Source of the DNA: Actinomycetota bacterium
GTDB taxonomy: Bacteria; Actinomycetota; Acidimicrobiia; Acidimicrobiales; Aldehydirespiratoraceae
Assembly: GCA_009937405.1 (NCBI GenBank)
Contig: JAACCU010000207.1
Coordinates: 1 to 41,433 of the forward strand
Direction: 5' to 3'
Length of the DNA stretch: 41,433 nucleotides
The position numbers and the translations under genes were made by a program. Positions 15,981 through 26,237 of the stretch are shown one piece after another. The notes under the pieces were generated by a model. The model was not told where the DNA came from and did no database searches. It saw nothing but the letters and a program-made list of their open reading frames with translations. The stretch's first letter is position 1. Each line of letters starts with the position of its first letter.

Positions 15981-16000
15981 CCGCGTTCTCGGCCACGAAG

Positions 16001-17029
16001 CTAGGGGACGGTTCGGTCAGAGACCCACTGGGCAGTCGGTGCATCTATCAATGCAGCGAGCTGGAGTAGCACGACGTCATAGTTGACCCGCCAGCCGGCG
16101 AAGTCGTTCCACGCTTGCTCTCGGTCAGCTTTCACCGGCAATCCCTCATTGCGCAGCCGGTCATACACCTCGTCGTATTCGGCGCGGCTGACCGAGATGG
16201 AGTCACCCGGCTGGGGGCCGTCGGGATAGACGAATCCGAAGACGTCGGCGATCCGACGCAACGCGAGTGCACCAGTTCGAATCATCAACGCGGCACGGGG
16301 CTCTCGAGGCAGATCGAGCGTCGAGTGATACAACGACGCCGCATCAAGAGCGATGCCTGCACTGACAATCCAGCTGCGATCCGGGACCGGGGATCGGAAG
16401 AAGACAAGTATCGGGAACGACGTGTGAGTCTCTTCGACCTCGACAAACCAATTTTCCCACTCGCCCCACATCTCGCTGACCTGGCCGAGACCGGATATTT
16501 GCTGGGTTCGCACGAGGAGCGAGGCTGGGCTGGCCGTGCCGTCGCTCCATGTCGATCGGAGGTCAAGCTTGGCGACTGCGATCTCGCGTCGGGAGAACGC
16601 GCTGTACATGGTCGGTAGGAAGCTGATGAGTAAGGCGACGAGACCCAAGCCGACGAGTCCCTCGAAAATCGCGAGAAGAAGTGTCGGCAGATCGTCGGTT
16701 GTGCGAAATCCAAGTGTGGTCAACGACGACCCCGAAAGGACGAGCGCGTCGCGGTAAGGCTCAACGCCTAGGGCCCAAAACGTGGCGCTGCAGCCGAGGA
16801 GCACCCCAATGCTCCAGACAAGCGGCAAGACGAGAAGCGCAGTCGGGGCGAAGCGAGCCTTCATCGCTTCGCTGCCGCGGTAAAAGACCGATCGGAGCAG
16901 TCCGAACACGGCTCGCGAAATCCACACCTGCTTCGCGCGGGGCACGACAACTGTGCGACTCGCCAAGCCCATCGTGGCCAGCACCATCATGGCACCCGCC
17001 GTTCCTACCAGGATCCGCAAAATCGTCAC
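16001..17029 (-). CDS. Membrane protein with a potassium-channel-like pore loop
   Basis: The 342-residue protein has an N-terminal hydrophobic segment (about 2-25), a second helix (ALLVLPLVWSIGVLLGCSA), a re-entrant-looking loop SGSSLTTLGFRT (about residues 99-110), and a third helix (LLLAIFEGLVGLGLVALLISFLP) ending in SAFSRRE. The helix, pore loop, helix order and the TTLGF core recall two-TM potassium channels, whose filter is TVGYG or TLGFG; here the filter Gly-Asp is replaced by Arg-Thr. A soluble C-terminal half of about 190 residues follows. I do not know a characterised homologue. The GTG at 17029 is preceded by CAGACT at 6 nt. It converges with lemA. Confidence 0.65.
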   Translation of the reverse strand: MTILRILVGTAGAMMVLATMGLASRTVVVPRAKQVWISRAVFGLLRSVFYRGSEAMKARFAPTALLVLPLVWSIGVLLGCSATFWALGVEPYRDALVLSGSSLTTLGFRTTDDLPTLLLAIFEGLVGLGLVALLISFLPTMYSAFSRREIAVAKLDLRSTWSDGTASPASLLVRTQQISGLGQVSEMWGEWENWFVEVEETHTSFPILVFFRSPVPDRSWIVSAGIALDAASLYHSTLDLPREPRAALMIRTGALALRRIADVFGFVYPDGPQPGDSISVSRAEYDEVYDRLRNEGLPVKADREQAWNDFAGWRVNYDVVLLQLAALIDAPTAQWVSDRTVP

Positions 17030-17035
17030 GATGCC

Positions 17036-17041
17036 AGTCTG
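17036..17041 (-). promoter_or_regulatory. -10-like hexamer of the pore-loop protein gene (CAGACT on the minus strand), leaderless
   Basis: CAGACT ends 6 nt before the GTG at 17029, identical in hexamer, spacing and start codon to the ABC1 kinase promoter. Confidence 0.4.
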
Positions 17042-17128
17042 CCGGGGTCAGCAACGGATCAGGGACAGATAGCCGCTGGGTTGGAACTCAGGTGAACAAG
17101 TGGCGTGTTAGCCGAGCGAGAACGTCGT

Positions 17129-17271
17129 TCACTCCTTGACTTTCGGGTCGGGGAGGTCTTCGCTCAGCCAGTTGACGCCACCAAACGATGTGAACAGCCA
17201 AACCAGATGTGGAAACTGGGGTCCAACCCGAACGACGTCGGGACCAACCCAATGAACCCGTCGACTTTCAT
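17129..17271 (-). pseudogene. Possible small frameshifted gene after dnaE2
   Basis: An ATG overlaps the dnaE2 stop (ATGA at 17268-17271). Its first 23 codons have G/C-rich third positions (MKVDGFIGLVPTSFGLDPS and on), but the frame stops soon. The overlapping frame then reads as plausible protein (LFTSFGGVNWLSEDLPDPK) to TGA at 17129-17131. A single frameshift would join them into one peptide of about 46 residues. This may be a decayed co-translated gene or chance. The rest of 17030-17267 shows nothing else. Confidence 0.25.
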
Positions 17272-20200
17272 CGAAAGTCCCGAGACGGCAGCGTCTTGAT
17301 GACCGGTAGCGGCTCGATCTTGTCAGCCACCACATTGATCACCCCTTCCTCCTTCTCTAGACGGCCTCTAATAAGCAGCGCTGGCGCGCCCCGAGCCGCC
17401 TTCTTGTATCGCTGCCAGCAACCCTTCGAGATCACGACATTGATGAGCCCGGTCTCGTCCTCGAGGTTCAGGAACGTGGTGCCGCCCGCAGTGGCAGGCC
17501 GTTGACGATGGGTGACCACACCGCCAACGAAGACCCGTTCGCCATCTGGATGATCAACCAGCCCCGTGGCCATGACGACCCCGATCTTGGTGAGCTCGTC
17601 ACGAATGAAGATCGTGGGATGACCATCGGGGGCAATGCCCGTTGCCCACAAGTCGGCATGCGCGGTCTCCTCTGGCGACATTCCCGGCAGGGTCGGCGCA
17701 TCGATGCCGGTGATGATCCCGGGTAGACGATCCGCTGAGGTCTGCGCCATCGCCCCTGCAGTCCACAACGCAGACCGCCGGTCAATGCCAAAGCAGCCGA
17801 ACGCTCCCGCCGTGGCCAGCGCTTCCAAAATCGGCAGCGACAGCTTCGGCACACGACGTCGCAGATCCTCCACCGATGTATACGGGCGTCCCGCTGAAAT
17901 CTCCTCGGCCAAATCGGCCCCGATCCCCCGCACATAGCCAAGACCAAGGCGAACCTCGGCTTCCCCATCACCTTCGAGGCTGGCCGAGGCCGCAGACGCA
18001 TTGAGGTCCGGCGTATGCACCGCCACGCCATGGCGTCGAGCATCGCCCACCAGTGTGTGCGGCGACCAGAACCCCATTGGTTGGGCATTGAGCAGAGCTG
18101 CACAGAATGCGGCCGGGTAGTGATACTTGATCCACGACGAGGCGTAGACAAGATACGAAAACGACACGGAGTGGCTTTCGGGAAAGCAGTAGTTGGCAAA
18201 CGCGGCCAGCTTCAACCAGATCTGCTCGCCGAGCTCGTCGTCGATCCCGTTGTCTCGCATGCCGGCAAAGAAGCGTTCCTTCAGCTGCTCCATGCGTTCA
18301 CGACTGCGCTTCGATCCGATGGCTTGGCGCAGCTTGTCGGCCTCGGACGGCGTGAAGTTGCCGACATCGATAGCGATCTGCATCAGCTGTTCTTGAAACA
18401 GGGGCACACCAAGCGTCTTGGCCAATGCATTCTCCAGCAATGGATGGAGATAGGTGACCGGTTCGAGTCCGTTGCGGCGGCGGATGTAGGGGTGCACTGA
18501 TCCGCCCTGGATCGGGCCTGGGCGAATGAGTGCCACCTCCACTACCAGGTCGTAGAAGCAGCGGGGCTTGAGGCGAGGCAGGGTGGCCATCTGGGCCCGG
18601 GATTCGATCTGGAAGACGCCGATCGTGTCGGCCTTCTGGAGCATGTCGTAGACCTCTGACTCCTGGGGGAGCGCGGCCAGATCAATATCGACACCGTGAA
18701 AGTCACGGATGAAGTCGATGGCGTAGTGCAGGGCCGACAACATTCCGAGGCCGAGGAGATCGAACTTCACGAGCCCGGCGGCGGCACAGTCATCCTTGTC
18801 CCATTGCAGGACGCTGCGGTTCGGCATACGCCCCCATTCGACGGGACACACCTCGATCACCGGGCGATCACACATGACCATGCCGCCGGAATGAATGCCG
18901 AGGTGACGGGGGAAATGCTCGACCTCTGCCGCCAACTCCATCACTTGAAGCGGAATCGATGTGTCGGAATCGACAGCTCCGGCTTGCGCCATACGGTCGG
19001 AGACATTTCGCCACCCGTCGACCTGCTTGGAGAACGCGTCCTGCTGGCCCTGGGCGTACCCCAAGGCCTTGGCCATGTCTCGAATCGCCGATTTCGAGCG
19101 GTAGCTGATGACGTTCGCGACCTGGGCGGTGTGGTGGCGACCATGACGTTCATAGACGTATTGGATGACCTCCTCGCGACGGTCGCTTTCGATGTCGATA
19201 TCGATGTCGGGTGGTCCGTCACGTTCTGGCGACAGGAAGCGTTCGAACAACAGGCTGAGGGAGACGGCATCGGCGTTAGTGATGCCGAGGGCGAAACAGA
19301 CCGCAGAATTGGCAGCCGAGCCCCGGCCCTGGCAGAGGATGTCGGACTTGCCGCAAAAGTCGACAATGTCCCAGACAACAAGGAAGTAACCGGGAAACCC
19401 GAGCTGGTCAATCAGGGCGAGCTCTCGGTCGAGTTGGGCCCATGCTCCCTCGACCCGCTCGGCTTCACGCGAGCCATAGCGACGGGTGCCGCCTTCTTCC
19501 ACAAGTCGACGGAGAAATTTTATCTCGCTCAACCCGTCGGGGCACGGGTACGGCGGAAGGTTAGGTGCCACCAGTGAGAGGTCAAACGCACACTCGAGTC
19601 CGAGTGCAGCGGCTCGTTCGACAACCCCGGGGTAACGAGCGAAGCGGGCGGCCTGCTCCTCACCAGATCGCAAGGGCATACCGGCGGGTGGAAGCCAGCC
19701 GTCGATCTCATCAAGGCTGCGCCGGGCTCGAACTGCAGCCAAGGCCGAGGCCAAGCGGTTACGAGCGACTGAGTGGTGGTGGGCGTTGGCGGTGGCGAGG
19801 ATGTCGACGCCTGCGGCCACAGCCAGCTGTGCCATCCCGTCGTTGCGAACCGAGTCGGCGGGCATCCCGTGGTCCCACAGCTCGACGAACACGTTTGGTC
19901 GACCGAAGTCGCTGACGAGACGGTCAAGTTCGCGCCGGGCTGCTGCGGGTCCCTGGTTCACCAGTGCCGCTGGCACCGGCCCTTTCCGGCACGCGGTGAG
20001 CACAGCCCAGTGATCACCCGAGCCTGTGCCACCTAGCTCGACAAGCCGTTCATACGGGATGCGGGGTGCCCCCTTCTCCCCCGCCAACTGGCCTTCGCTG
20101 ATCGCTCGGGCGAGCAAGGCATAGCCCCGTGGGTCACGGGCAAGAATGACGAGGTGCTGACCGTGGGGATCAGGCGGGCCCGCACGATTCAGATCTGCTG

Positions 20201-20633
20201 AGGTCAGCGGTGATGCCGAACGATCCGCCCGGTCCCCGGGTGGCGCCAGCAACGTGAGCTCGGCGCCGAAGATCGTTGGCAGGCCAATCGCCTTGGCGGC
20301 TTCGGAGAATCGGACCACGCCGTAAAACCCGTTGTGGTCAGTGAGCGCCAGTGCTTCGAGCCCGAGCCGAGCTGCTTCCTCGGCTAACTCCTCAGGGCGT
20401 GAGGCACCATCGAGGAATGAGAAGTTGGAGTGGCAGTGCAGTTCCGCGTAGGGAACTCGCCCGCGCGTTCGAACTGGCTCGGCGGGTGGCGTGTAGTCGC
20501 CCCGCTTGCGGGTCCAGGCCGGGCTATCGCCGCCGTCTCCCTCCCACAACTCCCGGACACGGCCCGTCGTCGGACGATCAGACAGAGTCTGCTCGAGGTC
20601 CTTCCACGGCACGTTCGGACTGTTCCATCCCAC
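17268..20633 (-). CDS. dnaE2: Error-prone DNA polymerase DnaE2 (SOS-induced)
   Basis: DnaE2 is the catalytic subunit of the actinobacterial mutasome and performs damage-induced translesion synthesis with ImuB and ImuA'. The 1121-residue product starts with a short extension, then a PHP domain (ELHCHSNFSFLDGAS with the HxH metal motif; LALTDHNGFYG). The C-family polymerase core shows GRGSAANSAVCFALGIT and the catalytic acidic cluster PDIDIDIESDRREE (about residue 475), followed by the finger/helix-hairpin-helix part and a C-terminal OB-fold (NLEDETGLINVVI). Without tau-binding or editing parts beyond this, it fits DnaE2 and not replicative DnaE1. The GTG at 20633 has TACGGT 7 nt upstream and a LexA box two bases further on, so LexA control is expected. 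Confidence 0.95.
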   Translation of the reverse strand: MGWNSPNVPWKDLEQTLSDRPTTGRVRELWEGDGGDSPAWTRKRGDYTPPAEPVRTRGRVPYAELHCHSNFSFLDGASRPEELAEEAARLGLEALALTDHNGFYGVVRFSEAAKAIGLPTIFGAELTLLAPPGDRADRSASPLTSADLNRAGPPDPHGQHLVILARDPRGYALLARAISEGQLAGEKGAPRIPYERLVELGGTGSGDHWAVLTACRKGPVPAALVNQGPAAARRELDRLVSDFGRPNVFVELWDHGMPADSVRNDGMAQLAVAAGVDILATANAHHHSVARNRLASALAAVRARRSLDEIDGWLPPAGMPLRSGEEQAARFARYPGVVERAAALGLECAFDLSLVAPNLPPYPCPDGLSEIKFLRRLVEEGGTRRYGSREAERVEGAWAQLDRELALIDQLGFPGYFLVVWDIVDFCGKSDILCQGRGSAANSAVCFALGITNADAVSLSLLFERFLSPERDGPPDIDIDIESDRREEVIQYVYERHGRHHTAQVANVISYRSKSAIRDMAKALGYAQGQQDAFSKQVDGWRNVSDRMAQAGAVDSDTSIPLQVMELAAEVEHFPRHLGIHSGGMVMCDRPVIEVCPVEWGRMPNRSVLQWDKDDCAAAGLVKFDLLGLGMLSALHYAIDFIRDFHGVDIDLAALPQESEVYDMLQKADTIGVFQIESRAQMATLPRLKPRCFYDLVVEVALIRPGPIQGGSVHPYIRRRNGLEPVTYLHPLLENALAKTLGVPLFQEQLMQIAIDVGNFTPSEADKLRQAIGSKRSRERMEQLKERFFAGMRDNGIDDELGEQIWLKLAAFANYCFPESHSVSFSYLVYASSWIKYHYPAAFCAALLNAQPMGFWSPHTLVGDARRHGVAVHTPDLNASAASASLEGDGEAEVRLGLGYVRGIGADLAEEISAGRPYTSVEDLRRRVPKLSLPILEALATAGAFGCFGIDRRSALWTAGAMAQTSADRLPGIITGIDAPTLPGMSPEETAHADLWATGIAPDGHPTIFIRDELTKIGVVMATGLVDHPDGERVFVGGVVTHRQRPATAGGTTFLNLEDETGLINVVISKGCWQRYKKAARGAPALLIRGRLEKEEGVINVVADKIEPLPVIKTLPSRDFR

Positions 20634-20640
20634 ATCTTTG

Positions 20641-20646
20641 ACCGTA
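20641..20646 (-). promoter_or_regulatory. -10 hexamer of dnaE2 (TACGGT on the minus strand), leaderless
   Basis: TACGGT ends 7 nt before the GTG at 20633 and lies 2 bp from the LexA box; the same hexamer and spacing occur at cysQ. Confidence 0.55.
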
Positions 20647-20648
20647 GA

Positions 20649-20662
20649 CGAACATTTGTTCG
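20649..20662. promoter_or_regulatory. LexA operator (SOS box) of dnaE2
   Basis: CGAACATTTGTTCG matches the actinobacterial LexA consensus CGAAC-N4-GTTCG with both half-sites intact. It lies 2 bp upstream of the dnaE2 -10, so bound LexA would cover the promoter spacer. Confidence 0.9.
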
Positions 20663-20666
20663 TTTA

Positions 20667-21854
20667 CTACATGGAATCTGGTTCGTGTTCGAGGGTCAGA
20701 TAGACGGTTCGAACGGCGAGAGCTTCGCGAACTTCAGCAGTCATGTCCTCGGCAAACTCTGCTCGATAGGCCTCATCGGTCACCACCTGAACAGCAAACT
20801 GCAGACCCGACATCATGCCAATAAAGGCCGACACCAAAATCAGCTGCCGGGTAAAGACCAGCTCTCCGCCCAGCACGTTCCAGTAAAGCGCCCAGTCCGC
20901 AGACCGGGTCAGTTCGGTGGCCGTCGTCCACTGCACGAGGGTTCCCTCTCGCACCGTCAGCAAACCAAAGACGATATAGAACGCCGTAATCACGACCGCC
21001 ACAAGCGCAATCTGTATCGCCTGGGCGACGAACAGCAACATGCCGACATTGAACTCGGCACGATGTCCGAGCGCGGGAGCGCCCGGCGGCTTCTCATCAT
21101 CTCCCGGCACCAACCCCTCGACCGGAGTATCGACACATCGGCCCCGAACATCCGCCCAATCATCGAACCGAGCGAGATCGACGGTGATCCGCCGCACCGA
21201 AAACACGACAAATGCTGCACCGATCCCCGTGATCAGTACTGACACGAGCCCGAAGTACGCAAGGGTGAAGTCGTTGGCCACCTGCCACATCTCGGCGTTG
21301 AGAAAGATAAACGCGGAGAAGACGAGAAGGATCGGCAACGACTTCATGGCAAGCGTGGCAACATCGCCGATCTGACGGGTGACCTGCCCGAGCGACCACC
21401 GCATCATCGGGAACAGGCCCCATGAGGTGACGACATAGGCAAGACCAAGGATCACAAGATTCGAGACCAGGATCGTGACGAGGTTGTCGCCGACCGCACT
21501 CTCCGAGCCGATCGCCGTCGGCACAAGCGGAAGACCCAGATAGAGGATCAACTCAACGAGTCCGACGCTGTTGGGCAACTGCAGCGGCCGTCGGCCACGA
21601 AAGCGATTTACGAGGGCAAGCGCTGCCACCATCGCTCCAACGCCCGCAATAAAGGCGACGAGTTGGCTCCAGCCATTCCAGCGATCACCAAAGGCAAGGA
21701 ACAACTCAGCAAAGACCACGATTGTGAGGAAGGGCGCCGTGCGGGTGAGCACGTCCTCGGTGGCCGAATAGTCATCGATCAGGTGCGGCAACCCGCGGCG
21801 CACAAACCAGCGCTCACAGCGACCACGCTGGATGATCTTTGAAGGCTCGGTCAT
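20667..21854 (-). CDS. Multi-pass integral membrane protein of unknown function inside the SOS cluster
   Basis: A 395-residue protein with about eight hydrophobic segments (for example LTIVVFAELFLAFG, LVAFIAGVGAMVAALALV, LVELILYLGLPLVP, LVTILVSNLVILGLAYVV, LPILLVFSAFIFLN, LAYFGLVSVLITGIGAAFVVF, FVAQAIQIALVAVVITAFYIVFGLL and LILVSAFIGMMSGLQFAVQV). A soluble loop of about 45 residues after the sixth segment contains a Pro/Gly-rich GDDEKPPGAPALGHR stretch. I recognise no family. It begins 18 bp after the imuB stop and ends just before the dnaE2 LexA box, so it should be read through from the LexA-controlled imuA' promoter. A CATCAT hexamer 6 nt before its ATG could also give its own leaderless transcript. 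Confidence 0.75.
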   Translation of the reverse strand: MTEPSKIIQRGRCERWFVRRGLPHLIDDYSATEDVLTRTAPFLTIVVFAELFLAFGDRWNGWSQLVAFIAGVGAMVAALALVNRFRGRRPLQLPNSVGLVELILYLGLPLVPTAIGSESAVGDNLVTILVSNLVILGLAYVVTSWGLFPMMRWSLGQVTRQIGDVATLAMKSLPILLVFSAFIFLNAEMWQVANDFTLAYFGLVSVLITGIGAAFVVFSVRRITVDLARFDDWADVRGRCVDTPVEGLVPGDDEKPPGAPALGHRAEFNVGMLLFVAQAIQIALVAVVITAFYIVFGLLTVREGTLVQWTTATELTRSADWALYWNVLGGELVFTRQLILVSAFIGMMSGLQFAVQVVTDEAYRAEFAEDMTAEVREALAVRTVYLTLEHEPDSM

Positions 21855-21872
21855 TGCACCATGATGGTCGCC

Positions 21873-23429
21873 TCAGTCCCACACCGCGGTGACCCACCAC
21901 TGGCCTCCTTCAAGCGTGAGCATGCGGGCAACACCATCGCTGGTGACGATCTGAAAGCGGGCCTGGCGTCGATGTGTCTCAGCGTCCCACCAGCGTTCGT
22001 CGATCGGCCACGGACCGGCCCACGCCGCAACCTCAGCCCGGGTGTGATTGTTGCGGAGTTCGACAGGAGGCGCCGAAAGCAAACCTCGACCATCGACCTG
22101 CACGGGTTCACCCGCCTCATCCACCACCTCGACCACTCTTGGCGCAGCGACCACCCTCGTGGGTGATGGAGTTGGCAAGCCACCCGGCCAAGGAGGCTGC
22201 TCAGAGTCGTCGAACAAGGTGCGGCCTCGCAGCTCGACGGTGGCCGCCGGCACGAGCATGAGCCGCTCACCAAAATGACGCCCACCTCGTCGTTCCACAA
22301 CACGAACAGCATCGGCGCCGAGTTGGCCTTGAAGACGAGCAGCCACCCTCGCCGCTCGCTCATCGACCTCCGTCTCCCCTCCCCAGAATCCAAGCTGACG
22401 ACCCTTGGCGGCAATGAGTTCGTCAGGCATCAGCGACACCCGACTGATCCCCCCACTTGGACGGGTGGCGGCCGGCCCGTTGAGCCAGCCATCGAGTTGC
22501 CATCGCACCCGGTCAGCCACCGCCGCATCAGACAACGTGCCCTCGTGGCGCCAAAGCCGCACGAACTCCTCACCGAATTCGGTTTCAGCTTCAATCGCCA
22601 CTCGCACGCAGGTCACACCGGCACGCCCGAGACGCTGATGGAACTCATCGGCAAGGCTGCGGGCAACAAAGGCGACCCGGTCGACCTGGAGCGCTGGTGG
22701 ATCGATTTCGGCGCTCACCGACCAGTCAACGGGAGGGTGCCGCGCATCAGGGGGCCGTTCGTCGAGTCCTGACGCAAGCCGATGAGCGGCGAGACCCTCA
22801 GAGCCAAATCGGGCCAACACATCGGTGGCCGGTAGCGCGGCAAACGCGCCAAGCGTGCCGATACCGAGACGCACGAGCACATCGGCCAACTCTGGTCGCT
22901 CGAGCACGGCCACACGCATCGGCGCCAGGAACTCGGCGACCTCTCCTTGAGCGATCAGCCGGGTTGGCTGAGCCGCCCGGGCCGCAAGCTCTGCTGCGAA
23001 TGACCCATCGGCGATACCGATACGCACCTCTGTGCGGCCGTTTAACACCGTACCCATGGCCTCACGAATGAGGTCAGCGACCTTCTCGTCTCCACCGAAA
23101 TAGCGAGATGGACCCAGGGTGGTGACGGCACAGGTGCCAGGACGGATGATCTCGATACGAGGCGTGATGTTGTCGAGGGTGCCAATCACCGGTTCGAAGG
23201 TGCGAGCCTCTCGGGCTTCATCACGTTCGTGAAGCTGCAGGTCTGCACATCGGGCCTGGGCCACTCGACGCCGCAGCCCCCGCACAACGCCATGCTCACG
23301 GGCACTAGGCGACGACGCCACAATCCGGTTGGCGTGGACGACGGCCACTGGCTCATCGAGCGGTACACCTGTCGCCACAACTGGCCAATCGGGACACCAG
23401 GCAACAAGTGTCCGCACGGGGACGACCAT
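21873..23429 (-). CDS. imuB: ImuB, inactive Y-family polymerase-like mutasome hub
   Basis: ImuB links DnaE2 and ImuA' to the beta clamp during SOS mutagenesis and is not itself a polymerase. The 518-residue product has the DinB/UmuC-like fold (RTLVAWCPDWPVVA at the start) but lacks the catalytic acidic residues of Y-family polymerases: the position of the SxDE motif reads AVTTLGPSRYFGGD. A clamp-binding motif QLGFWG lies at residues 345-350, like the QLPLWG motif of mycobacterial ImuB. The C-terminal part (WPGGLPTPSPTRV; WAGPWPIDERWWD; ARFQIVTSDG) is the region expected to contact its partners. It starts 3 bp after the imuA' stop, so the two are co-translated. Confidence 0.93.
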   Translation of the reverse strand: MVVPVRTLVAWCPDWPVVATGVPLDEPVAVVHANRIVASSPSAREHGVVRGLRRRVAQARCADLQLHERDEAREARTFEPVIGTLDNITPRIEIIRPGTCAVTTLGPSRYFGGDEKVADLIREAMGTVLNGRTEVRIGIADGSFAAELAARAAQPTRLIAQGEVAEFLAPMRVAVLERPELADVLVRLGIGTLGAFAALPATDVLARFGSEGLAAHRLASGLDERPPDARHPPVDWSVSAEIDPPALQVDRVAFVARSLADEFHQRLGRAGVTCVRVAIEAETEFGEEFVRLWRHEGTLSDAAVADRVRWQLDGWLNGPAATRPSGGISRVSLMPDELIAAKGRQLGFWGGETEVDERAARVAARLQGQLGADAVRVVERRGGRHFGERLMLVPAATVELRGRTLFDDSEQPPWPGGLPTPSPTRVVAAPRVVEVVDEAGEPVQVDGRGLLSAPPVELRNNHTRAEVAAWAGPWPIDERWWDAETHRRQARFQIVTSDGVARMLTLEGGQWWVTAVWD

Positions 23430-23432
23430 GAG

Positions 23433-24152
23433 TCAGCCCTGCGTAGCGAGGGCCGGTGCTTCGACGGGGACGAGCTCAGGCCGGCCCAGCGGACCAGGCA
23501 GCAACATGTCGGCCGATCGCGGTCGAGCCGATGCTCCTCGCCCGCCGCCGTTCACCGTCACCCGACGGGACTGCAACACCCCATGACCACGCCCAAGCCC
23601 CGACCACTTACTTTCGACAACCTCAAGCTGCACGTCTGCCCCTCTGGGCCAGCGACCATTGGTGCACACCAGCACCGACCCTCGTGCCCGCAGCCGCGCC
23701 GAAAGGCGCCGGGCCTCAGCATCACGGACCCGGTGACGGGGTGCCACCAACACGATGTCGACGGCGCCGACGAGCGCGGCAACTGCAGCACTCCACGACG
23801 ATGGCTCCGGGTCAACGACCAGCACTCGCTGGAGGGCAACCCCCACTTCCTCGGCAGCCGCAAGCCCAAGGTCCGGATCGCCAACTACGGCAACCCACGA
23901 ACCAGTCGTTGAGGCAGCCGCTGCGATAGCCAATGCCAGTGCGGTCGATCCCGAACCAGCAACTGACACCGTCGAGCCGCGCCGCAAACCTTCAGGGAAA
24001 AGGTCGATCAACTCAGCGAGAAGTGGCAATGTTCGTTCCCGGGCCAGCGCCATCGGAGCGACCCGGTCACTAACTAGTTGCAGCCTGACGCGCCGATCTG
24101 CGATTGCCTCGTCGGGGTCGACGACAGAGAGCAGCGACACCGGAGAAGCCAT
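23433..24152 (-). CDS. imuA': ImuA' (RecA/SulA-like mutasome accessory protein)
   Basis: A 239-residue RecA-fold protein that works with ImuB and DnaE2 in induced mutagenesis; its role in mycobacteria is to support mutasome recruitment, with the detailed mechanism unsettled. The P-loop region reads VAGSGSTALALAIA (residues 64-77), where the GK[ST] lysine is absent, so ATP binding may be weak or lost. The VAVVGDPDLGLAAAEEVGV segment and the SVLVCTNGRWPRGADV strand follow the RecA-like order. It is first in the cluster, with TATAGT 8 nt before the ATG and a LexA box directly abutting that hexamer. Confidence 0.85.
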   Translation of the reverse strand: MASPVSLLSVVDPDEAIADRRVRLQLVSDRVAPMALARERTLPLLAELIDLFPEGLRRGSTVSVAGSGSTALALAIAAAASTTGSWVAVVGDPDLGLAAAEEVGVALQRVLVVDPEPSSWSAAVAALVGAVDIVLVAPRHRVRDAEARRLSARLRARGSVLVCTNGRWPRGADVQLEVVESKWSGLGRGHGVLQSRRVTVNGGGRGASARPRSADMLLPGPLGRPELVPVEAPALATQG

Positions 24153-24160
24153 ACTTTCTC

Positions 24161-24166
24161 ACTATA
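24161..24166 (-). promoter_or_regulatory. -10 hexamer of the imuA'-imuB transcript (TATAGT on the minus strand)
   Basis: TATAGT ends 8 nt before the ATG at 24152 and directly abuts the LexA box. Confidence 0.6.
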
Positions 24167-24180
24167 CGAACATCTGTTCG
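24167..24180. promoter_or_regulatory. LexA operator (SOS box) of imuA'-imuB
   Basis: CGAACATCTGTTCG matches CGAAC-N4-GTTCG; symmetry extends three more bases on each side (ATA and TAT). It touches the -10 of imuA', so LexA binding should block transcription. Confidence 0.92.
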
Positions 24181-24210
24181 TATTATGCAAGTTTGGGATC
24201 GGGTCGTGCC

Positions 24211-25704
24211 TCAACTGGATCTCGGTGTTACCCGTCCGTTGGTTTGTCGCACGAGAGCGGTTGCGAACACAAGACAGCCAATGGATATGGTCCCTGTTGC
24301 GACATGTATCCACGCCAACCCGTGTCGGATCGCGTCCTTTGTCTCAGTCCCAAGAGAAATGTTTTCGCCCGCAATGACGTCGCGTACCGCGTCAACGTCG
24401 CCCACCTCAAGGTCAACGACAAGAAGAACTATGGCGCCGGCCAGGGCGATGCCGTACATGATGGCTAGTTGCCGGATGAACTGATGAGCGGCCGTGACCC
24501 GGCCCATTTCGGATATGTCGCTGCTGGCCTGCAACAGGGTGAGACCAGCGGTGGTGACCATGCCGACTGATATGCCGATGAGTGCAGACGCAGCGAACAG
24601 CAATGACAGGGGCCAGTCAAGGGCGATGGTGATCCCGGCCGCGCCGATAGAGGGAACAATCAGCCAACAGCCAAGGAGAATCACATCACATTCGCGCCAC
24701 TTGTTGAGCACTCGGCTGTACACGAGCGAACCTAGCGTCCAACCCAGGCTGAGAAATACCAACGAGATTGCGGCGAATTCCACCGACCGGCCCCGAGCAG
24801 TCTGCACATAGAAGGGCAGGAAGTCGTCGACGGCCAATGCGTTGAACATCACCAGACCGGTAGTGACATGCACCCATCTCAGCGGGAACCGGGTGAAATG
24901 TTCGCGGGCCAGCACAGGTGCATCGACACGGCCGCTGTGATTCCAGTACAGAGCCATCAACACCACCGTCGCGGCGAGTGCTGCGCCGCTTGCCCACCAA
25001 TGCACGCCGATCTGGGCCACAGCCACCAGGGAGCACACGATCAGCAGGGCCATCAGACCCACACCTTTCCAGTCAGTCTGGATCTGTGACGGGTGCTGTC
25101 GCGTGGTCGGAAGTGTGGTCCACCCCGACGCAAGCGCGATCACAGCCAATGGGACTTGGATGATGAAGATGATCCTCCAGCCGCCGAAGGCCAGCAGAAC
25201 CCCGGCGAGGGCTGGGCCGCCGAGCCCCATGATTCCGAACATCACCGACTGGGCGGCGAATGCTTGCGGGCGGAGCTCATGGGGATAACCCACGCCAATG
25301 GCCGCAAGAGCCACCGCGAACAACAAGCCGCCACCGAAGCCCTGCACACCACGGGCGAGAATCAGCAACGGCATCGACGGCGCTGCTGCCGCCGCCAACG
25401 TGGACAGAAGAAACCAGATCCCGGTGATACGAAACGTACGGCGAACACCGATCGCGTCGATGACCGGCCCCGCCACCACCACAGCGATTGCCGACGTCGC
25501 CAAATAGGCGGTGAACACCCACGGCAAGAGGCCGATCTGCCCCAGATCCTCAGCGATGCTGGAAAGCGCCGCAATCAGTGCAAGCGTGCCGAAGCCAACC
25601 AAGGCGACAATCGTCAAGGTCGCGAGCGTCATCGGCAGATACGCCCCCGACCAGATGCCAGAGACCTTTTCTACGCCATCGTCACCGGTGCTCTGCTCAC
25701 TCAT
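24211..25704 (-). CDS. MFS transporter (multidrug-exporter-like)
   Basis: A 497-residue major facilitator with 12-14 predicted membrane segments. The DHA-type signature after segment 2 is GPVIDAIGVRRTFRITG, and segment 5 carries the GPALAGVLLAFGGWRIIFIIQVP motif typical of drug:H+ antiporters (motif C-like), closest in style to the 14-TM DHA2 branch. The substrate is unknown. Its stop lies 30 bp from the imuA' LexA box; the gene itself shows no LexA box upstream. The ATG at 25704 has no convincing ribosome-binding site or -10 within 10 nt. Confidence 0.85.
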   Translation of the reverse strand: MSEQSTGDDGVEKVSGIWSGAYLPMTLATLTIVALVGFGTLALIAALSSIAEDLGQIGLLPWVFTAYLATSAIAVVVAGPVIDAIGVRRTFRITGIWFLLSTLAAAAAPSMPLLILARGVQGFGGGLLFAVALAAIGVGYPHELRPQAFAAQSVMFGIMGLGGPALAGVLLAFGGWRIIFIIQVPLAVIALASGWTTLPTTRQHPSQIQTDWKGVGLMALLIVCSLVAVAQIGVHWWASGAALAATVVLMALYWNHSGRVDAPVLAREHFTRFPLRWVHVTTGLVMFNALAVDDFLPFYVQTARGRSVEFAAISLVFLSLGWTLGSLVYSRVLNKWRECDVILLGCWLIVPSIGAAGITIALDWPLSLLFAASALIGISVGMVTTAGLTLLQASSDISEMGRVTAAHQFIRQLAIMYGIALAGAIVLLVVDLEVGDVDAVRDVIAGENISLGTETKDAIRHGLAWIHVATGTISIGCLVFATALVRQTNGRVTPRSS

Positions 25705-26237
25705 GGACGCGCCATCCGCGTGCCTCTCAAATCAAGTCATGCGAGAAGCGCCACGTGAAGGCGGTCCCCGGCTCGTTGAGAAGGGCAGTTCGCCCAGAAG
25801 ACGAAGGCCAATCACCGTGCCATGCACGCAACGCTAGCTGGTAAGCGAGTCCATGGTGATTTGTGACCGCGCCGTATTGTTCGAGACGCCGAATATGCGG
25901 GATGCCTTGATGTCAAAGACCATTTCAGCGACGCGGCCCAGTATGAGTAGTTCTGACCGGGCCGCCCGTCGCTACCCCACGGTCTTGCGTGTTACGGATC
26001 GCATCTAGGACGCTGCCAGGCAACCGACCGAATCCGACCAATCCATCGCCAACCCGGCACAAAGCGAAGAGTACGCATGACGAACCGGTATACGTAACAG
26101 GCCAAATCCTGTGAGCAGCGCAGTTCCCGTGAGGCCGAAACTTCGAATACGCTCTACCTTCTCAACCCTTGACCGGCATGAGACCGAACGCAACCCGATA
26201 GCCACGTACCACCGGTCACTGCAGCCGAGGAGGCGCC
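25705..26237. other. Gene-poor 533-bp interval
   Basis: No frame here has convincing coding character on either strand. It is somewhat less GC-biased than its surroundings. It contains an imperfect inverted repeat (25928-25972) and the Shine-Dalgarno of the next gene (GAGGAGG at about 26226-26233). It marks the start of the accessory stretch to about 30.9 kb. Confidence 0.5.
25928..25972. repeat. Imperfect 12-bp inverted repeat with a 19-nt loop
   Basis: GCGACGCGGCCC (25928-25939) pairs with GGGCCG-CC-CGTCGC (25959-25972), leaving a two-base bulge. No T-run follows on either strand, so it is not a standard terminator. Confidence 0.4.

Follow-up and report, generated by a model that had tools for sequence, protein, structure and literature searches.

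A polytopic membrane protein gene between imuB and dnaE2 in the SOS mutasome locus of Acidimicrobiales

Introduction

Damage-induced mutagenesis is driven by the ImuA'-ImuB-DnaE2 cassette, and whether further proteins belong to it is of interest. In the stretch of DNA investigated here (the window, 41,433 nucleotides), a gene for a polytopic membrane protein, referred to below as MEM, stands between imuB and dnaE2, which raises the question of whether it takes part in the damage response, and in what capacity, or is simply carried along.

Results

Organization of the locus

The following features make up the locus.

24167 to 24180, no strand given: LexA box CGAACATCTGTTCG, a perfect palindrome before imuA', which would control imuA'-imuB-MEM; found at the same place in relatives
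23433 to 24152, minus strand: imuA', 239 aa; NCBIfam NF058630 (ImuA'/Rv3395c-type), 148.6 bits, cut-off 65
21873 to 23429, minus strand: imuB, Y-family-like, 518 aa; recognized from weak Pol IV models only and from context
20667 to 21854, minus strand: MEM, 395-aa polytopic membrane protein, putatively of an Rv2113-like family; ATG start, eight predicted transmembrane (TM) segments
21282 to 21305, minus strand: codons of the FLNAEMWQ loop of MEM (residues 184-191), predicted extracytoplasmic
20688 to 20777, minus strand: codons of the conserved C-terminal helix of MEM, DEAYRAEF...EVREALAVR (residues 360-389), predicted cytoplasmic
20649 to 20662, no strand given: LexA box CGAACATTTGTTCG, a perfect palindrome between MEM and dnaE2; found at the same place in relatives
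17268 to 20633, minus strand: dnaE2, error-prone polymerase, 1121 aa; NCBIfam NF004225, 1408 bits

Along the minus strand, the genes are ordered imuA', imuB, MEM and dnaE2, with intergenic gaps of 3, 18 and 33 bp; imuB ends at 21873, 18 bp upstream of MEM, and dnaE2 starts at 20633, 33 bp downstream, so that the reading frame lies exactly where the earlier note had placed it, after imuB and ahead of the dnaE2 LexA box. That ImuB matches only weak Pol IV models is expected for a divergent, catalytically dead member of the Y family. A gene for an MFS efflux-like transporter (24211-25704, minus strand) lies immediately 5' of the LexA box that precedes imuA', in the same orientation, and is also present in the nearest relative (L031). 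A 342-aa reading frame without NCBIfam match (16001-17029, minus strand) is situated 3' of dnaE2, as it is in L031 and L075, and its homologue was also noticed 3' of MEM in L041/L064, where MEM is unlinked. Close relatives harbor an AbiEi-like/MTES_1575-type gene between MEM and dnaE2 (L032:7185-8246, L060:7305-8240). An Rfam scan of 16000-26000 gave no match.

We observed only two perfect LexA-type palindromes in the whole window, one before imuA' and the other between MEM and dnaE2. Sites with one mismatch numbered six against 2.9 expected, which is not significant, and it is the two exact sites that match the positions seen in relatives; nearly all imu-linked MEM loci carry LexA boxes before both imuA' and dnaE2. 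As in members of the SOS regulon, a LexA box heads the transcription unit, of which MEM is the third gene on the same strand. A search for sigma-70-like promoters in 20500-24400 found none, which is weak evidence as this group may use other promoters, and the RecA-NDp (PafBC) promoter motif was not found upstream of MEM. A LexA-like GAAC....GTTC within the start of MEM (about +10 to +75, in several relatives) was rejected, as it consists of codons of the conserved ERWF motif. The 18-bp gap, the lack of a sigma-70-like promoter between the genes, and the conserved strand and order suggest that MEM is co-transcribed with its upstream neighbours. Judging from this layout, which is conserved in relatives, MEM would be co-induced with imuA'-imuB, in support of the earlier proposal that it is regulated together with the rest of the SOS mutasome locus.

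Distribution and linkage in Acidimicrobiales

MEM was detected in 76 of the 298 sampled genomes of the order Acidimicrobiales, compared with 255 that gave an imuB match (1e-10), a count which includes weaker Y-family matches. The majority of the imuB-bearing genomes are without MEM; by a rough count, about one in ten of those matching imuB has an imu locus that carries it. Since the loci were gathered by way of MEM, the linkage counts that follow do not give the frequency of MEM among imu loci generally: among 88 distinct MEM loci, 39 had imuB or dnaE2 no more than 6.5 kb away, 40 did not, and 9 were unscorable.

Adjacency to imuB in relatives was the point on which the earlier idea could have failed, and it held. 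In all 37 imuB-linked loci (37/37), imuB lies upstream on the same strand, with a gap below 300 bp in 22 of them, and wherever dnaE2 was linked it lies downstream on the same strand (28/28). The imuB-linked loci come from at least nine families (f1, f3, f6, f13, f17, f18, f28, f52 and f57) and a further one (f27) is linked through dnaE2, making at least ten in all, across which order and strand were kept fixed despite turnover of the other intervening genes. When mapped on the MEM tree, imu linkage requires at least 14 changes, with gains and losses not separable, and is clearly clustered on several deep branches. None of the 40 unlinked homologues in the order is preceded by its own LexA box (0/40). 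The imu linkage of MEM is no local accident, yet it is not obligatory, as about half of the homologues are elsewhere.

Retention of MEM in family f35

A 106-aa gene with an Nfu_N-type domain occurs near imuA/imuB in families f17, f52, f3, f6, f57, f28, f40 and f7, and in eight loci of family f35 it stands directly 5' of MEM, at 3-36 bp. This Nfu_N-like gene is a marker of the imu locus across the order (L078, L085, L086, L088, L089, L092, L093 and L099; L106 and L115), although a search of the assembly to which the window belongs did not find it. A genuine imuB is missing from the f35 genomes (best match 1e-13), as is DnaE2, their DnaE proteins being 30-37% identical as against 63-70% for true DnaE2. 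Most simply, f35 lost imuA'-imuB and dnaE2 by deletion and retained MEM, implying that MEM has some role without the mutasome. MEM is not consistently co-retained with ImuB and DnaE2, either in f35 or in the many imuB genomes devoid of it, and we rejected a core mutasome subunit on account of f35.

The protein and its conservation

The AlphaFold model of MEM, built from an alignment of 70 homologues, consists of eight helices with a mean pLDDT of 89.8. Together with charge distribution and hydropathy, these helices predict eight membrane segments with both termini cytoplasmic, in agreement with the approximately eight segments claimed earlier. Eleven residues are invariant in the 70 aligned homologues (W16, G21, P23, R38, P174, E188, W190, P244, N269, W309 and D360). 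The FLNAEMWQ loop is the most conserved part, displaying the highest mean information among the regions compared, and a conserved N-terminal stretch, ERWFVRRGLPHLI, is predicted to be cytoplasmic. Pairwise dN/dS values of MEM among five close relatives are 0.05-0.17, indicating purifying selection, and imuA and imuB fall in the same range. With homologues throughout the family, invariant residues and purifying selection, MEM is a real protein.

No family in Pfam, NCBIfam or PADLOC covers MEM, and no catalytic motif was found in it. Sequence and fold searches against PDB and a viral fold search returned nothing significant; known transporter folds (MFS, EAAT, MATE and others) were unmatched, the best Foldseek hit having an E of 0.31 and a TM of about 0.13, and plasmid records held no homologue. 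MEM belongs to an actinobacterial family of membrane proteins with eight predicted TM segments, which has no name and may be termed Rv2113-like.

Other gene contexts

Away from the imu loci, the one MEM homologue with its own LexA box comes from another part of the phylum, outside Acidimicrobiales: in L172 (5720-8153) a perfect box separates it from a DUF222 gene that is divergently oriented. An HNH gene with a LexA-like site precedes MEM on the same strand by 41 bp in L129 (4671-7195). These would represent a second SOS context beyond the imu loci, which is only suggestive because the cases are few and actinobacteria often carry several copies of DUF222/HNH genes. Within family f1, in genus g2 and its relatives, MEM is followed on the same strand by a pair of ABC-exporter genes (L035/L066, L041, L042, L050 and L061), and in L096 a single type-I ABC exporter gene lies 29 bp after it. 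The genes of the exporter pairs 3' of MEM mostly adjoin or overlap.

Distant homologues in the Pup-proteasome locus

A scan of 397 genomes from across the phylum with the MEM profile recovered homologues in 34 of them. Against proteins of family f89, profile A1 aligned over positions 7-387 with E values of 1e-40 to 1e-54, so that the homology extends over the full length of a membrane protein encoded between dop and mpa. These f89 loci contain one or two tandem MEM homologues in the vicinity of prcA, prcB and a gene for a tRNA methyltransferase, and the neighbouring products were identified as Dop, PrcA, PrcB and Mpa. None of the Pup-proteasome genes clustered with any neighbour of MEM in Acidimicrobiales. 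Tandem duplicates were seen in L161, L162 and L163, near a gene of about 210 aa, of which the L164 copy matched nothing in Pfam or NCBIfam.

The dop and mpa genes of M. tuberculosis are Rv2112c and Rv2115c, and the Pup-proteasome locus has been tied to the mycobacterial damage response (PMC8223512). This numbering leaves Rv2113 and Rv2114 in between, and L164, compared by position, has exactly two genes there. The dop-mpa interval being Rv2113/Rv2114 by numbering, the f89 protein is very probably the Rv2113 orthologue. Rv2113 carries an integral membrane protein annotation and appears, with few spectra, in the co-immunoprecipitation list of the division-complex protein Rv0954 (PMC8093794). A review states that callyaerins bind Rv2113, dysregulating lipid biosynthesis and DNA repair (PMC13192320). 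The homology between MEM and the protein at the Rv2113 position is new here and formed no part of the earlier note.

Discussion

The reading we prefer, to which we would give an even chance, is that MEM is an SOS-co-induced accessory envelope protein and not a core subunit of the mutasome, the latter since genomes without ImuB and DnaE2 retain it; its activity we infer. Within Acidimicrobiales, MEM would have been built into a LexA-controlled imuA'-imuB-MEM-dnaE2 locus, where DNA damage would lead to cleavage of LexA and de-repression of the imuA' promoter, and MEM would then be transcribed along with imuA'-imuB. At the cytoplasmic membrane it may serve the damage response as an accessory arm in the envelope, and its most likely task there would be to adjust the state of the envelope or of division during lesion bypass. 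Order and strand in the linked loci, the linkage on several deep branches of the MEM tree, the LexA boxes, the dN/dS values, the second SOS context (L172, L129), the dop-mpa homology, the reported effects of Rv2113 ligands (PMC13192320) and the listing of Rv2113 with Rv0954 (PMC8093794) speak for this reading. Against it stand the more than half of scorable homologues in the order (40 of 79) that are away from imuB/dnaE2 and lack a LexA box of their own, the much narrower occurrence of MEM than of imuB, the missing PafBC motif, and the fact that neither a catalytic motif nor a PDB fold match nor the name of a family indicates an activity. The earlier interpretation is borne out in part: conserved order and strand next to imuB favour co-regulation, whereas a damage-response membrane protein, in view of the half of the homologues located elsewhere, almost all without a LexA box, and of f35 without imuB/dnaE2, keeps the standing of a suggestion.

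The strongest competitor, which the earlier note had also named, is that MEM is a general membrane protein with no role in damage, which joined the imu locus at an early stage of Acidimicrobiales evolution and was kept by inheritance. Its location elsewhere in about half of the genomes, its occurrence in other orders without imu linkage, its retention in f35 without imuB/dnaE2, and the absence of a LexA box at unlinked copies in the order are all in keeping with such a passenger, whereas the fixed order and strand across ten families despite gene turnover in between, the occasional second SOS context in L172 and L129, a homologue in a locus linked to the damage response (PMC8223512), and the effect of Rv2113 ligands on DNA repair reported in the review (PMC13192320) are not. 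Because of the conserved linkage, we regard a simple passenger as the less likely case, though a plausible one.

It is improbable that MEM acts as an anchor or partner of the mutasome, its cytoplasmic N- and C-terminal helices binding ImuA' or ImuB and tethering the complex at the membrane. The position directly after imuB in the operon and the predicted cytoplasmic location of both conserved ends would suit such an anchor, but MEM is retained in f35 without ImuB and DnaE2, most imuB genomes do without it, and mycobacterial ImuB and DnaE2 foci form with the beta clamp; no membrane partner of the mycobacterial mutasome was found described in the literature searched (PMC10421592). An envelope lipid or export factor that partners a type-I ABC exporter and is only secondarily linked to SOS has equally slim prospects, for although MEM precedes exporter genes in g2 of f1, its relatives and L096, and the review reports that Rv2113 ligands affect lipid biosynthesis (PMC13192320), few genes are as common as those of ABC exporters, most cases of the pairing belong to one lineage, and no transporter fold matched.

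Returning to an accessory envelope protein, a broader version can tentatively be put forward, which we think rather doubtful as a whole: the Rv2113-like family may be a conserved actinobacterial membrane arm of the damage response, wired to LexA at the imu locus in Acidimicrobiales, located with the Pup-proteasome in mycobacteria, having a fold new to PDB, and serving an envelope function that is hit by a natural antitubercular peptide. Having stayed with its locus in ten families, MEM is a concrete candidate protein through which damage tolerance could be connected to the envelope, which suggests that the damage response of these actinobacteria may include a membrane component. As the same family very probably includes the drug target Rv2113, the context in Acidimicrobiales offers a testable clue to the role of that protein.

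Comparison with known systems

The SOS-induced division inhibitors SidA, DivS, ChiZ and YneA are membrane proteins, as MEM is, and MEM would be expected to share their LexA control. They are, however, small and have a single TM segment, whereas MEM has 395 aa and eight predicted TM segments, and no link between them and MEM was found in the family libraries searched. In comparison with the ImuA'-ImuB-DnaE2 mutasome cassette, the same three genes are found here, with LexA boxes before imuA' and dnaE2, but an extra membrane gene, not known in the mycobacterial cassette, lies between imuB and dnaE2. This is a real variant of the imu locus, of which no description was found in the literature searched. 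The f89 protein at the Rv2113 position differs from MEM in residing in the Pup-proteasome locus and not the imu locus, in sharing 22-30% identity with it over the aligned parts, and in being sometimes tandemly duplicated. It nevertheless resembles MEM in its size of about 395 aa, in its full-length profile homology, and in the common motifs WF..RGLP, LP..L..F..F.N..VW and D..YR..F.
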